From Fodinibius salinus (GTDB lineage Bacteria > Bacteroidota > Rhodothermia > Balneolales > Balneolaceae), in assembly GCF_008124865.1 (NCBI RefSeq), contig NZ_VNHY01000001.1, forward strand, positions 1 through 64,000: a stretch of 64,000 nucleotides of DNA, read 5' to 3'. A model generated the notes under the pieces. That model did no database searches. It was not told where the DNA came from and saw only the letters and a list, made by a program, of their open reading frames with translations. The position numbers and the translations under genes are program-made. The first letter of the stretch is position 1. Each line of letters starts with the position of its first letter. This document shows positions 42,487 through 47,701 of the stretch, piece by piece.

Positions 42487-43170
42487 CTAATCAGATGTTA
42501 CAGCAGGATTCCAGTTTAGATAAAACGAAAGTCCAAAATAGTAAAAGGGGAACAGGAATGAGCTGTAAATTAATGTAGGAGAAGAATCATCAAAGTAATA
42601 CATGAGTGCAAAAAGTTGCAGGACAAAAACACTCCCCAGCAGTAAGGTTAGGGGTCGTAGAAAGGTAGTGCGCGTGGGATATAAAAATTTAACCGGTAGA
42701 AAGGTGACAAGGGCAAAAAACAATAAAATGCCTGAGGCAAATATGACAGGCAAATCCAGCAGAAAGATATAGAAGACAACAATATTCCAGTACGAGGGAA
42801 ATCCAAGGAAAAAGTGGTTGTCAGTTTTGGCCTGTTTATTCGAAAAGCCAAAGACGCTGGCTAGGGCACAGATCATCAGCACCCATATTGGTAATCGCAT
42901 AGTGGCGTAAATCCACAACAACGGAGCTACTGTCCACGTCAAAAAGTCGATGATATTATCCATCAGAGCACCGTCAATTTGAGCAGCATATTTTTTTGTG
43001 TTCACCAGTCGAGCAAGTGCCCCGTCAATGGAATCAATAATAGCTGATAATGCTAGTATCCAGATAGCTTCTTGATAAAAGCCATCGTAAATAAGGATAA
43101 TAGCCCATAACCCTAAACTGGCACCTAAGGCCGTTAAAATATGTACCCCATATGCAGCTGTCTTTTTCAC
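42487..43170 (-). CDS. pcs: CDP-alcohol phosphatidyltransferase, phosphatidylcholine synthase-like
   Basis: The 227-residue membrane enzyme has about seven hydrophobic helices and the CDP-alcohol phosphotransferase motif DSIDGALAR...GALMDNIID (D-x2-D-G-x2-A-R ... G-x3-D-x3-D). The following HFFLGFPSYWN strongly recalls phosphatidylcholine synthase, which condenses CDP-diacylglycerol with choline. The C-terminus ends with several TM helices. No choline transport gene is adjacent. The assignment to the superfamily is sure; the choline specificity rests on the FPSYWN region. Confidence 0.82.
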   Translation of the reverse strand: MKKTAAYGVHILTALGASLGLWAIILIYDGFYQEAIWILALSAIIDSIDGALARLVNTKKYAAQIDGALMDNIIDFLTWTVAPLLWIYATMRLPIWVLMICALASVFGFSNKQAKTDNHFFLGFPSYWNIVVFYIFLLDLPVIFASGILLFFALVTFLPVKFLYPTRTTFLRPLTLLLGSVFVLQLFALMYYFDDSSPTLIYSSFLFPFYYFGLSFYLNWNPAVTSD

Positions 43171-43302: not shown

Positions 43303-44934
43303 CTATGATTCGTTTTTACTATCTGGTAACTTATAAGTAATAGGGAGTGAATACTGCACGCGTACTGGCTGACCTTTTTGCATACCTGGTTCGAACTGTG
43401 CTTGTTTTACAACCCGAATTGCCTCTTTGTCAGCTCCTCCACCGATACCCCGAATTACTTGTGGGTTTTCGACTTCCCCTTGTTTATTAACAATAAACTG
43501 TACGATTACTCGCCCTTCTATACCGGCTTTTTGGGCCATTTCAGGATAGTTTATTTTTTTCTGTAGTCCAGCTAAGCCCCCTTTAATCTCAGGCATCTGT
43601 TCGACTTCTACAAAAAAGTCTTGATGTTCTAAATCACTTACATTGCTGTTTTCTTCTTTTAGATCTGTAAATGCTTTCTGTTTTGTTTCATTCCAAATAT
43701 GAAGTTCAACTACACCATCTTTGGCTTTTGGACCGTATTTTTCAACGGCTTTATCTCCTTTTAAAATATCAATTGATTTAATGTATTTTGATTTTAAACG
43801 GCTCAATTTTTGAATTTTCTCATCGCTGGTTACTTGTTCGCCATTCACAAAAAATAACTGTTGTTGGTTCGTACTTTGTATTTGGGATTGGGCTTGTTGA
43901 ACCTCTGAATTTGTGATACCATTCTCAGCCATGTCGGTACAAGAAATGGTCAGCACCACAAGTGTGGCCGAAACCACTGTCATTAAAACGCTCGATCGGA
44001 ATTTTGAGGAAATATTGGTTTGAGAAGACATAATTTGGATTCGTTTTTTGAGTGAAGAAGGATTAATAGCCATGCTCATGGCCAATTGGGTTTGATGTTC
44101 GCGTTTTGCAAGTTTGTAGAGCAGGGAGGCATACTTCTTTTTGGAAAATTGTTTGTTAGCCAGCACTTCACTATCACAAGTGATTTCCCGGTACTCTTGA
44201 CTGGAATTGTGTAGATAATGGACCAGTGGATGAAACCAGAATACGGCTTTAATAAATACCAGCAGACCGTTGAGCAAATAATCGCGATGTTTAATATGCA
44301 TCAACTCGTGTTGTACGGCCATTGCCAGGTTTTGGCTATCTGTTTTTAAATCAGAAGGAATCACAATTTTGGTTTTTCGCCATCCGTAAGTAAAAGGTAT
44401 AGTGGCTATATTTGAATATGCTAACAGTGTATTCGTATCATGTTTTTCGTTGATGGATAGGGCATCGGCAAGCTCAGAGCAGGAGTGCAATGGTTGGAAC
44501 TGAAGATGTTGCTCCATCTTTTTAAGCTGAACGAAATCAGTTGCCATCTTGCATAAATACAGCACTATACCCAAGACAACAAGAGTTCCCAGCAGCCCCA
44601 GCCAGATATTAGGTCCATAGGTGGTAAGAGCTAAAGAAGATTCGGAAGACCCCGGACCGACAGTGATAGGATTTTGGACAACGATAAAAGCTGTTGATGC
44701 TGTTTCCGAGCTTTTAGCCAGAAAATCAGTCAGCAAGGCACCTGCGATGCCTAGTGGCAGCACCAGTGCCAGTGCAATACGGCTATGATACTGATATACT
44801 GCCGGCATTGATTTCGTCCAGCGAAGATATCCGGTGATAGGAATAGCGATACATGTCCAGACCAGCAGCGGGAACAAAATATATTCCAGCATCTGATCTC
44901 CAAAATACTGTAAAAAATTGATGATTTGTGTCAT
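43303..44934 (-). CDS. BlaR1-like M56 membrane metallopeptidase with TonB C-terminal domain
   Basis: The 543-residue protein has hydrophobic helices near 16-35, 53-72 and 108-128, then the M56 peptidase domain with zinc motif HELMH at 209-213 (VQHELMHIKHRDY) and another membrane segment near 312-330. The region after it has a TonB-receptor-plug-like wording (IKSIDILKGDKAVEKYGPKA, then KDGVVELHI). The last ~95 residues are a TonB C-terminal domain (INYPEMAQKAGIEGRVIVQF). Classical BlaR1 has a penicillin-binding sensor at this end; here it is absent. Its start overlaps the BlaI-type repressor stop by 4 bp, so this is the expected sensor/protease for that repressor. Confidence 0.92.
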   Translation of the reverse strand: MTQIINFLQYFGDQMLEYILFPLLVWTCIAIPITGYLRWTKSMPAVYQYHSRIALALVLPLGIAGALLTDFLAKSSETASTAFIVVQNPITVGPGSSESSLALTTYGPNIWLGLLGTLVVLGIVLYLCKMATDFVQLKKMEQHLQFQPLHSCSELADALSINEKHDTNTLLAYSNIATIPFTYGWRKTKIVIPSDLKTDSQNLAMAVQHELMHIKHRDYLLNGLLVFIKAVFWFHPLVHYLHNSSQEYREITCDSEVLANKQFSKKKYASLLYKLAKREHQTQLAMSMAINPSSLKKRIQIMSSQTNISSKFRSSVLMTVVSATLVVLTISCTDMAENGITNSEVQQAQSQIQSTNQQQLFFVNGEQVTSDEKIQKLSRLKSKYIKSIDILKGDKAVEKYGPKAKDGVVELHIWNETKQKAFTDLKEENSNVSDLEHQDFFVEVEQMPEIKGGLAGLQKKINYPEMAQKAGIEGRVIVQFIVNKQGEVENPQVIRGIGGGADKEAIRVVKQAQFEPGMQKGQPVRVQYSLPITYKLPDSKNES

Positions 44935-45314
44935 TGGTCATCCTCCATTTTATCGATCATATCTTTAATCTCCATGAGATCTTTGTCGGTCATGTCATCA
45001 CTATTGACGAGCGTTTGAATGAGCTGTTTCGGTGATCCCTTGAAGACCTTTTTTATTAATTCTGATATAAGATTAGAACGTACCGATTCGGGCTCCTCGG
45101 CGGGACTGTAAACGTATGTGACCCCCTCTTTACGATATTGTAGATATCCTTTCTCTTCCAAGTTTTTCATCACCGTCATAATAGTGGTATAAGCAACCTC
45201 TCGGCTTTCGAGAATGCGTTCGCGCACCTGTTTGACTGTTGCTTCACCTAAGTCCCACACATGGTGCAGTACTTCCATTTCTGTTTCTCCAAGGGGAGTC
45301 AGTGATTTCTTCAT
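44931..45314 (-). CDS. BlaI/MecI/CopY-family transcriptional repressor
   Basis: The 127-residue winged-helix protein has the PLGETEMEVLHHVWDLGEAT start and an AYTTIMTVMKNLEEKGYL recognition-helix region typical of BlaI/MecI. A C-terminal helical dimerisation tail (SDDMTDKDLMEIKDMIDKM) follows. The family represses its own operon and adjacent genes until cleaved by a BlaR1-type protease. It is encoded as the first gene of the pair and is divergent from two beta-lactamase-family genes. Three dyads in the 179-bp intergenic region are candidate operators. Confidence 0.94.
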   Translation of the reverse strand: MKKSLTPLGETEMEVLHHVWDLGEATVKQVRERILESREVAYTTIMTVMKNLEEKGYLQYRKEGVTYVYSPAEEPESVRSNLISELIKKVFKGSPKQLIQTLVNSDDMTDKDLMEIKDMIDKMEDDQ

Positions 45315-45373
45315 CTTTTTATTGTTGAATTATTATTGAATGGTTTTGCTTAATGTTAGGTCCTAATTATTTA

Positions 45374-45391
45374 GTACTAACATAATAGTAT
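45374..45391. promoter_or_regulatory. candidate BlaI-type operator 1 (weaker)
   Basis: GTACTAA-CATA-ATAGTAT follows the 7-4-7 dyad of the two sites at 45433 and 45454, with two mismatches in the left arm. It overlaps the 10-bp palindrome TTAGTACTAA at 45371-45380. It is the site nearest the repressor gene. Confidence 0.5.
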
Positions 45392-45432
45392 TAATATTTG
45401 TATAAAGCAATTTTACCCTATTTTGAATCTAC

Positions 45433-45450
45433 ATACTATTTCCGTAGTAT
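45433..45450. promoter_or_regulatory. candidate BlaI-type operator 2
   Basis: ATACTAT-TTCC-GTAGTAT is a 7-4-7 inverted repeat with one mismatch. Its centre is 21 bp from that of the perfect site at 45454, two helical turns, so repressor dimers could bind on the same face. Confidence 0.6.
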
Positions 45451-45453
45451 TTA

Positions 45454-45471
45454 ATACTATCTAAATAGTAT
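45454..45471. promoter_or_regulatory. candidate BlaI-type operator 3 (perfect dyad)
   Basis: ATACTAT-CTAA-ATAGTAT is a perfect 7-4-7 inverted repeat ending 22 bp before the start codon of the beta-lactamase-family gene at 45494, where a bound repressor would block transcription. Confidence 0.65.
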
Positions 45472-45493
45472 ATCGTATAAGGTTTTATTCGTA

Positions 45494-46477
45494 ATGGCCC
45501 GTTATTCTCTATATTTGTTCCTATTTATTATAACTATTCCCAATATTGTATATGCACAAACAAATAGTATTGATCATCACCAACTCCAAAAACTAATACA
45601 TACAACAGATACTACTAAGGCAAGTAAAGCCTTGGTTATTCATAATTCTGAAGTTATAGGATCCTTCAATTCTAATAACTGTGACAAAACTTATATGGGT
45701 ACCGCTTCAATGGTTAAATCTTGGACGGGCTTGGCTGTGGGTATATTAGTTAAGAAAGGATTTATCAAGAGCGAGAATGAACAGATTTGCAATTATGTGC
45801 CGGAATGGAAGTCTGGATGTGAAAATAATATCACGATAAAACAGTTACTTACCATGTCTTCAGGTCTTCAAAGGATTAGACCTGCATCTGAGTCTATCTT
45901 AGCTCAAGACGATATGGATAGTTTTGCTCTAAATCAGGATGTGACAAAAGAACCTGGAAAGGATTTCTCATATTCAAATGAAGGGGTTCAATTGCTGGGT
46001 ATTTTAATTGAAAACGCCAGTGGACTAAGTGCTAGTGATTTTTTTCAGGATTACCTTTTCAAACCACTGGAAATGGATTCTACAAGTCTAATGGTTGATG
46101 AAAGTGGTAATGATATTGTTTATGGGGGTGCTCAAACTACCATTCAAGATGCTTCAAAAATTGCATTGTTGATGTTGAATGAGGGAAGCTACAAGGGGAA
46201 ACAGATTGTACCCCCGCAATGGGTGGGAAAGTCAACAACTCCTTCACAAACTCATGAGAGTTATGGTTACTTATGGTGGATAAATACAGAACACTATGGT
46301 TCTCAAATGGAAAATTATTCAGCAATGGGTGATTTTGGGCAGTTAACAATTATTTTTCCCAAAAAGAATTTAATCTACTTAAGAGAGCAAGCCTGTAATA
46401 AAAAACCAGGTACTAATATGAAATGGATGGGGCAAGATTTTATAAATATAATTGGAAAAGTCATCATACGTAATTGA
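45494..46477 (+). CDS. class C beta-lactamase-family serine hydrolase (S12), exported
   Basis: The 327-residue protein has a signal peptide (hydrophobic YLFLFIITI, cleavage near VYAQ). It has a complete S12 active site: Ser72-x-x-Lys75 (ASMVKSWTG), Tyr160-Ser-Asn162 (FSYSNEG) and SYGYLWW near the C-terminus. The family includes beta-lactamases, D-amino-acid peptidases and esterases. The sequence does not resemble a known clinical beta-lactamase, so the substrate could be a cell-wall peptide or another ester/amide. It lies next to BlaI-type operators and is divergent from the blaI/blaR1-like pair, so induction by envelope signals is inferred. The next gene begins one base after its stop. Confidence 0.9.
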   Translation: MARYSLYLFLFIITIPNIVYAQTNSIDHHQLQKLIHTTDTTKASKALVIHNSEVIGSFNSNNCDKTYMGTASMVKSWTGLAVGILVKKGFIKSENEQICNYVPEWKSGCENNITIKQLLTMSSGLQRIRPASESILAQDDMDSFALNQDVTKEPGKDFSYSNEGVQLLGILIENASGLSASDFFQDYLFKPLEMDSTSLMVDESGNDIVYGGAQTTIQDASKIALLMLNEGSYKGKQIVPPQWVGKSTTPSQTHESYGYLWWINTEHYGSQMENYSAMGDFGQLTIIFPKKNLIYLREQACNKKPGTNMKWMGQDFINIIGKVIIRN

Positions 46478-46478
46478 A

Positions 46479-47534
46479 ATGAAAACAACACTCAGATATC
46501 TACAACTTTCCCTATGTCTAGTTCTATTTATTAACTGTACTACCTCAAAAGAGATTAGAACAATAGATAACAATTCGCTGGAACTTGCTAAGGAATACTC
46601 CGAGAATAAATCTGGAGAAGCACTGCTAGTTTGGGCTGATGGTGATCTTATCTTGGAAGACTATCACAATAATACTTCACCCGAAAAAAGGTATGCACTT
46701 GCTGAAGTAAGTACTTTGTTTTCTGGTCTCATTGCATTGGCTGCGAGGGATGATGGTTTGCTTAAACTTGATGAGCCAGTATCAGCAACCATCACTGAGT
46801 GGCAACATGATCCCTATAAATCCAGCATAACTATTTCACAGCTCCTCCATTTGACAAGTGGAATTACTCCGGGTAGTTACAAATCTATGCCCCCGGTAAA
46901 AAAGGTACTCAAAAGACCTTTAATTCAACCACCAGGGCAAGAGTTTCGTTATGGGCCTATCCCATTTCAAGTATTCGGACTCGTTATTCACGAAAAAGGG
47001 GTTTCTAATTACTTAAAAGATAGAATTCTTAACCCTATCGGTATAGAAGGAGGATATTGGAAAATAGATCAAGAAGTATTTACTAGCGAGACTAATAGTT
47101 ATACCATTCCGCGTTTTTTTGACGGTTCTAGCCTGACTGCTGAAGAATTGGGCCGGGTTGGAAAATTATTGCTCAATCAAGGTAAATGGAAGGGGAAGAC
47201 CATTATTAATGATATAAGTCCGCTCACACAACCATCACCAGCAAGTCCGGGCTACGGGCTTGGCGTGTGGCTCAACAAGAACATTAAAACAAAATCGGAC
47301 AGCTCGTTTATTAGCAATTTGCCTGATAACATCATGTTGCTAAGAGGCACTAATAAGAAAAAATTTATATATGATAAAGCCCCCTCTGATTTATATATGG
47401 CAGCTGGTCGTCTTAATCAACGTCTTTATATTATTCCATCAAAAGATATAGTTATCGTTCGTTTAGGTGGTGCTGACCTAAGATGGAGTGATGCAAAGTT
47501 TTTAGCTCGATTATTAAATGGTCAACATTTATAA
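46479..47534 (+). CDS. catalytically degenerate beta-lactamase-family lipoprotein
   Basis: The 351-residue paralogue of the preceding gene is started at ATG 46479 (the frame opens at TTG 46452 inside the upstream gene). The N-terminus is a lipoprotein signal (LVLFINC, Cys20). The fold landmarks are kept: ISQLLHLTSGI, GYGLGVWLNK, Gly-rich ends. However, the S-x-x-K motif aligns to EVST (Glu76 for Ser, Thr79 for Lys), and Y-S-N is Y-G-P (158-160). It therefore cannot use the family's serine chemistry. A role as a ligand-binding or regulatory envelope lipoprotein is inferred. Translation is probably coupled to the upstream active copy. Confidence 0.85.
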   Translation: MKTTLRYLQLSLCLVLFINCTTSKEIRTIDNNSLELAKEYSENKSGEALLVWADGDLILEDYHNNTSPEKRYALAEVSTLFSGLIALAARDDGLLKLDEPVSATITEWQHDPYKSSITISQLLHLTSGITPGSYKSMPPVKKVLKRPLIQPPGQEFRYGPIPFQVFGLVIHEKGVSNYLKDRILNPIGIEGGYWKIDQEVFTSETNSYTIPRFFDGSSLTAEELGRVGKLLLNQGKWKGKTIINDISPLTQPSPASPGYGLGVWLNKNIKTKSDSSFISNLPDNIMLLRGTNKKKFIYDKAPSDLYMAAGRLNQRLYIIPSKDIVIVRLGGADLRWSDAKFLARLLNGQHL

Positions 47535-47539
47535 AATAT

Positions 47540-47701
47540 TTAATCTAATAAGCCGGCATTCATTACACCCACATTTCTACCGCCTGTTTAGAGAATCCAA
47601 CCCTGTCTAGCAATTAATTTCCCCAGTTCATAGGCATAATCAATATCCTTTTGAGAGGCTCCATCACCGGGACCCATGACACCTATAATAGACTTGTTCA
47701 T
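47540..47701 (-). pseudogene. fragment of a SLOG-domain (TIGR00725-type) protein with an internal stop
   Basis: Reading from ATG 47701 on the minus strand gives MNKSIIGVMGPGDGASQKDI and ...YELGKLIARQGWIL, then TAA at 47590-47588, then in the same frame TGGRNVGVMNAGLLD and TAA at 47542-47540. Together this is the first ~52 residues of a TIGR00725/lysine-decarboxylase-like (SLOG) Rossmann protein, including the glycine-rich TGGRN loop. It is broken by one nonsense codon and truncated before the PGGxGT region. The complete protein would be about 160 residues. Confidence 0.75.

Follow-up and report, generated by a model that had tools for sequence, protein, structure and literature searches.

The closest described relatives of the locus reported here are the BlaI-BlaR1 and MecI-MecR1 systems of staphylococci and bacilli, in which, as here, a repressor and an M56 protease share one operon and serine hydrolase genes lie divergent to it. 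Mycobacterium tuberculosis BlaI reportedly governs a wider regulon. In the accessible portions of the source texts, the protease motifs of BlaR1 are given as HExxH and ExxxD (PMC9834060) and the core of the published BlaI/MecI/CopY operator as TACA/TGTA (PMC7253601). Our locus lies in a stretch of 64,000 nucleotides from Fodinibius salinus (family Balneolaceae, phylum Bacteroidota; contig NZ_VNHY01000001.1, positions 1 to 64,000; hereafter, the window), which forms the start of a 1.08-Mb contig in a genome of 2.86 Mb. The best reading, which we consider probable, is a BlaI/M56 derepression switch with a TonB-mimicking sensor and an envelope regulon in trans. As a preliminary description of this DNA had noted, the blaI and M56 genes, both on the minus strand, overlap by 4 bp, and the 179-bp gap between blaI and the divergent gene S12a, which starts at 45494, holds three 18-mer dyads (45454-45471, 45433-45450 and 45374-45391, with 0, 1 and 2 mismatches, respectively). 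The features of the locus are listed below by window position; genomes and loci are cited by G and L numbers, F. salinus being G000.

43303-44934, minus strand: putative M56 sensor/anti-repressor gene, 543 amino acids, with a BlaR1-type zinc protease core in the membrane (Pfam Peptidase_M56, 3.2e-32; TonB_C, 8.7e-23)
43327-43554, minus strand: TonB_C domain of the M56 sensor, residues 461-536 (Pfam)
44931-45314, minus strand: BlaI repressor gene, 127 amino acids, recognition-helix segment AYTTIMTVM (Pfam Penicillinase_R, 6.5e-30)
45375-45390, no strand: putative autoregulatory operator TACTAACATAATAGTA, core kept before blaI in relatives
45434-45449, no strand: putative distal S12 operator TACTATTTCCGTAGTA (dyad scan)
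45455-45470, no strand: putative proximal S12 operator TACTATCTAAATAGTA, perfect 7-4-7 dyad (dyad scan)
45494-46477, plus strand: S12a, secreted serine hydrolase (Pfam Beta-lactamase, 7e-28; SxxK and YxN motifs)
46479-47534, plus strand: S12b, degenerate S12 paralogue and probable lipoprotein (lipobox by eye; Pfam Beta-lactamase, 1.4e-18)
47552-47701, minus strand: LOG-like gene remnant, the first 50 codons with one in-frame stop, 82% identical to the intact G019 gene

The dyads had been read as 7-4-7 repeats; the sites themselves hold, but the conserved arms are 5-6-5, i.e., TACTA-N6-TAGTA. The loose 7-4-7 motif is weak by itself, because nine matches with at most three mismatches in the window compare with 4.09 expected, and 2 of 100 shuffles reach nine. 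With at most one mismatch, the 18-mer occurs at three places in the whole genome, two of them inside the gap between blaI and the S12 genes and the third at C2:785424, 22 bp upstream of the start codon of a gene for a lipoprotein with the fold of formylglycine-generating enzyme (FGE). Perfect copies of TACTA-N6-TAGTA number six genome-wide, and three of them lie inside this gap. The operator region of the lipoprotein gene is also 90% identical over 30 bp to positions 45451-45480.

The copy at 45374-45391, described earlier as the weaker one, does have the most mismatches to the 18-mer, but it is the conserved dyad rather than the lesser one, because a perfect core precedes blaI in 26 of 27 family loci. 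These loci derive from a search of 92 family genomes that gave a BlaI match in 75, nearly full-length at 55-100% identity in 69. The best 30 matches were examined, and L023 (only 28 bp of upstream sequence), L012 and L013 were set aside, leaving 27 loci, the window included. A core was counted up to 100 bp from blaI, and the one locus that falls short, L022, has a single mismatch; 200 dinucleotide shuffles averaged 0.025 perfect cores, with a maximum of 1. Conservation of the dyads in relatives is thus borne out for the blaI-proximal copy, whereas the two stronger copies belong to a lineage-specific S12 replacement (see below). The TACA-N2-TGTA core was found in 0 of 28 family blaI operators. 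The two S12 operators are 21 bp apart, the spacing that operators preceding blaI also have in six loci from another genus. In L012 and L013 (G014 and G010), an extra gene heads the blaI operon behind an operator pair 23-24 bp apart, about 507-531 bp upstream of blaI. Of 29 loci, 19 carry a TTGAC upstream of blaI and on its strand, and many copies are placed so that a -10-like TATATT sits within the operator, an arrangement that we read as a promoter. The window does not have this -35-like TTGAC (45391-45410), possibly a mark of the S12-block junction.

The same BlaI type is present in other families of the phylum; a search of 296 genomes sampled across the phylum yielded BlaI/M56 pairs, judged by BlaI matches, in 143. 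All 39 listed matches outside the family (about 42-68% identity) were scored; the first 20 are mostly the best per genome, and many of the other 19 are second copies. Of the cores before the first 20 blaI genes, 17 are perfect, 2 have one mismatch and 1 has two; of those before the other 19, 8 are perfect, 6 have one mismatch, 4 have two and 1 has three, which makes 25 perfect cores in all. Our controls were 20 BlaI genes from other subfamilies (29-35% identity), for the most part those next in the list of matches, together with this genome's second BlaI, and TACTA-N6-TAGTA precedes none of them. The 13 controls with a YTTTLK helix all carry TACGA-N6-TCGTA, and the other seven divide into one with the TACGA dyad, two with TACA-N2-TGTA, one of which is the second BlaI of this genome, and four with none of the three dyads. 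The first 20 BlaI proteins outside the family have the AYTT helix without exception (20/20), and the TACGA dyad precedes none of their genes (0/20). Judged from these sequences, recognition helix and 16-bp dyad seem to be paired by BlaI subfamily (L269-L327), most AYTT helices going with TACTA-N6-TAGTA. The second BlaI/M56 pair of this genome (G000:C1:708266-708610; L005, L308) has a different recognition helix, and a TTCTACATTTGTAGAA dyad lies upstream of it.

The locus had been taken for a compact module, a view that the recurrence of the operators at unlinked genes does not support. The clearest trans site in this genome precedes the FGE-fold lipoprotein gene (C2:785425), which is also the most frequent predicted target overall. 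Among all 39 orthologues of this lipoprotein with at least 49% identity, 29 have a perfect core no more than 110 bp upstream, where shuffles give 0.02 on average and never more than 1; two others (G042 and G030) have a core with one mismatch. The remaining eight have no core, and G036 and G032, both without this blaI, are among them. The lipoprotein has an FGE-sulfatase domain. Formylglycine-generating enzyme carries its active-site cysteine pair after a GGS motif. In the L007 protein the only cysteines are at 18, 113 and 246 and this pair is missing, so that the FGE-fold lipoprotein is more likely a binding or structural protein than an enzyme.

Site contexts were read in 12 genomes of the genus. 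Besides blaI, the core precedes a tonB gene in five of them (G009, G010, G012, G013 and G014), a divergent paralogue in G010, G012 and G013; in G016, a doubtful case, a site lies upstream of the first intact tonB at a distance of about 0.8 kb. TonB was rejected as a general target, given that this genome's own canonical tonB has no site and that the operator is confined to 5 of the 12 genomes. Three genomes each have the core before the FGE-fold lipoprotein gene (G000, G010 and G014), before a fasciclin protein gene divergent from that of a small secreted protein (G010, G014 and G017; a G012 site within the fasciclin coding region, L054, was excluded), before an AhpC/TSA-domain gene (G009, G013 and G015, by Pfam in G013 and by N-terminal similarity in the others) and before S12 hydrolase genes (G000, G014 and G015). 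An initial reading of a 492-amino-acid target as an esterase was dropped, as Pfam assigns it to AhpC/TSA. The remaining cores of the genus are inside open reading frames or before genes that were seen once or are weakly similar. Ten genomes of a second genus contain 34 cores, compared with 193 control sites; the core stands before blaI in 10/10 of them and before the lipoprotein gene in 8/10, G021 and G024 having no close orthologue. Further genes behind a core, typed by sequence similarity, are DUF4350-type (4 genomes), 6-bladed-propeller lipoprotein (4 genomes), DUF4440-type (3 genomes) and redoxin-type (1 genome). The N-termini of the recurrent targets, as we read them, suggest secreted, lipid-anchored or periplasmic proteins. 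The earlier suggestion of an envelope-stress or beta-lactam response therefore remains plausible in its envelope part, while its beta-lactam part does not agree with the missing penicillin-binding domain or with the S12a score for class C enzymes (37 of 415 bits).

As had been expected, the sensor part is unlike that of BlaR1. Peptidase_M56 and TonB_C occur together in all 21 M56 orthologues of the family alignment, and TonB_C recurs in 19 of 20 sensors from outside the family. In the window's sensor this domain scores 81 bits for PF03544 (cut-off, 24.6), and the generic BlaR1 model gives 87.3 bits of 400. HExxH and ExxxD are invariant across the 21 family orthologues. Pfam detects no penicillin-binding domain in the window's sensor; none is found among the best 25 of the 32 Pfam families in the 21 family sensors, where each remaining Pfam family matches at most one sensor, nor among all 7 Pfam families in the 20 non-family sensors. 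A weak Plug match is seen in 7 of the 21 family sensors (best, 8.7e-4), and 6 of the 21 have an added CarboxypepD_reg domain. The repressor itself is a clear BlaI (PF03965, 104.3 bits against a cut-off of 22.6) that matches MecI structures.

Linkers of the sensors differ strongly between genera, and the C-terminal domain (CTD) is the best-kept outer part. The last 98 amino acids of the window's sensor are 77.6% identical to this genome's own TonB. Ten other genomes were compared, and in 8 of them the sensor CTD resembles the resident TonB more than it does the window's sensor; the margin exceeds 5 points in G012, G016 and G020 and is small in the remaining five, while G010 and G013 do not show this. 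The tree intermixes sensor and TonB CTDs, and a single origin is not rejected (approximately unbiased test, p-AU 0.267); the identities hint at repeated capture of the TonB domain, which this value does not bear out. The AlphaFold model of the sensor (mean predicted local distance difference test score, pLDDT, 74.7; predicted template modelling score, pTM, 0.53) matches Staphylococcus aureus BlaR1 (E 1.4e-7) as well as TonB CTDs, among which the one solved together with FoxA, a transporter, ranks first (E 4.3e-5); against transporters such as Cir it gives no significant match (E 0.39). The layout of a TonB transducer, with one N-terminal membrane helix and a proline-rich linker, is absent, in that the M56 protease core precedes TonB_C and the window's sensor has no long proline-rich linker. 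Cys 332 of this protein, just past the last membrane helix, is invariant in the 21 family sensors and resembles an internal lipobox, so the outer domain could in principle be lipid-anchored or released. The nearest named relative of the M56 protein is from Fodinibius halophilus (60% identity). A CDP-alcohol phosphatidyltransferase gene (42487-43170) lies on the same strand, 132 bp past the M56 gene; its product resembles phosphatidylcholine synthases, with scores below their cut-offs.

The S12 pair has a history of its own. In S12a, SxxK at residue 72 and YxN at residue 160 uphold the earlier view of a complete active site; calling S12b a degenerate paralogue was likewise reasonable, its SxxK/YxN matches (residues 41, 62, 67 and 337) being out of register with those of S12a. 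The likely start of S12b is the ATG at 46479, one base past the S12a stop, in place of the TTG at 46452 in the list of open reading frames. The best solved structure for S12a is Lsa45 (E 2.9e-21), and Lsa45 and 6-aminohexanoate-dimer hydrolases rank ahead of AmpC; the curated class C beta-lactamase model scores far below its cut-off of 415 bits. Most relatives have no S12 gene adjoining blaI; opposite it stands a DPRP photolyase-related gene, directly or beyond a LOG-like gene, or other genes. In the window, the LOG-like remnant is located between S12b and DPRP, and the G+C content of the S12 genes is 0.354 and 0.386 against 0.405-0.459 in four neighbours. The idea that the S12 genes are long-standing partners of blaI was rejected in view of the gene order of relatives and this remnant. 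Because of the remnant, the relatives' neighbours and the lower G+C content, the S12 block is, as far as these comparisons reach, a recent local replacement, at the cost of a LOG-like gene, and it has two operators of its own. G015 has homologues of both S12 proteins (34.6 and 57.6% identical) in reversed order, and TACTATTATATTAGTA, the commonest blaI operator, precedes the S12a homologue, with blaI on a different contig. Since this homologous pair with its operator is unlinked to blaI, the regulon would act in trans. A site is also found in G014, 32 bp upstream of a different S12 gene. No site is near the closest S12a relative (47%, G032, a genome without this blaI) or near the G035 homologue (40%), though blaI is present there.

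Taken together, sequence comparison supports a BlaI/M56 switch with operators in the gap, as first proposed, and with it the operator sequence, its link to this BlaI subfamily, the trans targets, the domain make-up and the intact protease motifs. On these grounds we regard the operator and regulon as very likely; we infer that BlaI binds and represses, that it is cleaved, and what the signal may be. In the proposed mechanism, a BlaI dimer would bind TACTA-N6-TAGTA over promoters and repress its own operon with the M56 gene via 45375-45390, the divergent S12 pair via the tandem sites 45434-45449 and 45455-45470, and unlinked genes in trans, such as that of the FGE-fold lipoprotein. By analogy with its family, the M56 protein can with good confidence be assigned the role of anti-repressor, and its outer part, a plug-like linker and TonB_C, would stand in for the penicillin sensor. 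The protease would become active when a periplasmic contact of TonB_C changes, most likely one with a TonB partner such as a TonB-dependent transporter; it would then cut BlaI and thereby switch on the envelope regulon, including the sensor operon. We propose a TonB-partner signal only tentatively.

Several observations weigh against this reading. In complete scoring outside the family, 14 of 39 blaI genes have no perfect core, and the resulting 25/39 is weaker than the 17/20 of the first subset. Three second copies with an AYTT helix (AYTT.MSVMKKL; G104, G206 and G124) carry the TACGA dyad; a strict code in which AYTT always means TACTA was broken once the remaining 19 matches were scored, and the recognition helix is therefore a guide rather than a code. 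In the genus, perfect cores are rarer than the backward control (56 sites against 200), so that a single bare core proves little and recurrence at orthologues is what counts. G031, G069, G055, G063 and G051 have blaI yet no lipoprotein operator, and G003, where the gene start cannot be placed, has no lipoprotein core either. Conversely, the lipoprotein site is present in G067 (97% complete), where the searches gave neither blaI nor a full-length M56 relative, and in G033 (82% complete), where they gave no blaI. As to the sensor, the window's own protein has no Plug match, and its linker has no significant structural match.

A switch for beta-lactam-inducible resistance, sensing beta-lactams or wall damage and using S12a to hydrolyse the drug, would make sense of the parts, since BlaI and an M56 protease are those of the classical system and S12a, with SxxK and YxN, matches Pfam Beta-lactamase. 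We nevertheless rejected it as the main reading and hold it to be very improbable: neither the window's sensor nor the 20 non-family sensors have a penicillin-binding domain, S12a reaches 37 of 415 bits for class C with Lsa45 and 6-aminohexanoate-dimer hydrolases ahead of AmpC in structure, and most relatives have no S12 gene beside blaI. That the S12 pair is outside the regulon, a chance arrival whose two dyads are incidental or serve another regulator, would fit a recent local replacement and the missing sites in G032 and G035, the genomes of two of the three closest S12a homologues found elsewhere. We find this improbable too, as G032 has no such blaI, the third homologue, in G015, has the commonest blaI operator on a contig other than that of blaI, and the G014 site precedes another S12 gene.

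How the TonB domain is used leaves more room for argument. It may be a mere tether, e.g., to peptidoglycan or other sensors, with general envelope stress (membrane or wall strain) as the signal and no TonB partners involved. The strongly varying linkers, the mixed set of envelope proteins among the targets and the weak Plug matches in 7/21 sensors are in keeping with this idea, which we consider possible though on the doubtful side; it sits less well with a CTD that is the best-kept outer part and 77.6% identical to the genome's own TonB, that is at least slightly closer to the resident TonB in 8 of 10 other genomes (not G010 or G013), and with the operator before a tonB gene in five genomes. 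The specific form of the preferred BlaI/M56 switch in which the protease mimics a TonB arm, samples transporter plugs or TonB boxes or competes with TonB for these, and so tunes the envelope regulon through the destruction of BlaI is a comparably speculative possibility. If true, the TonB mimic would be a proteolytic gauge of TonB-dependent transport, distinct from anti-sigma signalling and spread over several families of the class, with an accessory TonB in the regulon of some species.

No description of such a system was found in the open-access literature searched, most subscription journals being outside coverage; PMC12578637 contains BlaI, M56 and TonB but is unrelated. Domain databases may well list the M56-TonB_C architecture already; the operator, the regulon and the TonB-mimic idea seem to be new. 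The family name BlaI/M56 suggests beta-lactamase regulators; for this subfamily we provide a sequence-defined operator, a predicted regulon and a TonB-domain sensor, which allows a testable model to take the place of that label.

The system works like BlaI/BlaR1 in layout and protease core, but its sensor is no BlaR1 and its operators lack the published core. Structure 2g9w, which we take to be M. tuberculosis BlaI, shares the AYTT recognition-helix segment. Further likenesses to BlaI-BlaR1 and MecI-MecR1 are the HExxH/ExxxD motifs (accessible portion of PMC9834060), the 16-bp dyad and the repressor fold; unlike in those systems, the sensor domain is TonB_C and not penicillin-binding, the predicted trans targets are envelope proteins, and the operator has TACTA arms in place of the TACA/TGTA core (accessible portion of PMC7253601). 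The M. tuberculosis BlaR1 homologue is also a protease without the usual sensor domain, but no TonB domain is reported for it in the accessible portion of PMC9834060. Clostridium thermocellum BlaI resembles the present repressor in its small regulons, tandem inverted repeats and autoregulation, with the differences that its half-sites are GTCTAT and GACTAT and that the accessible portion of PMC8457756 mentions no TonB-type sensor. Like TonB-dependent cell-surface signalling (accessible portion of PMC7593790), the proposed switch would couple outer-membrane TonB-dependent transport to transcription by proteolysis; whereas that pathway runs from transporter to anti-sigma factor, here the TonB-type domain is on the protease and the output would be a BlaI repressor. 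Should the TonB domain indeed read the state of transport, this would be an unfamiliar way of coupling outer-membrane import to gene expression.

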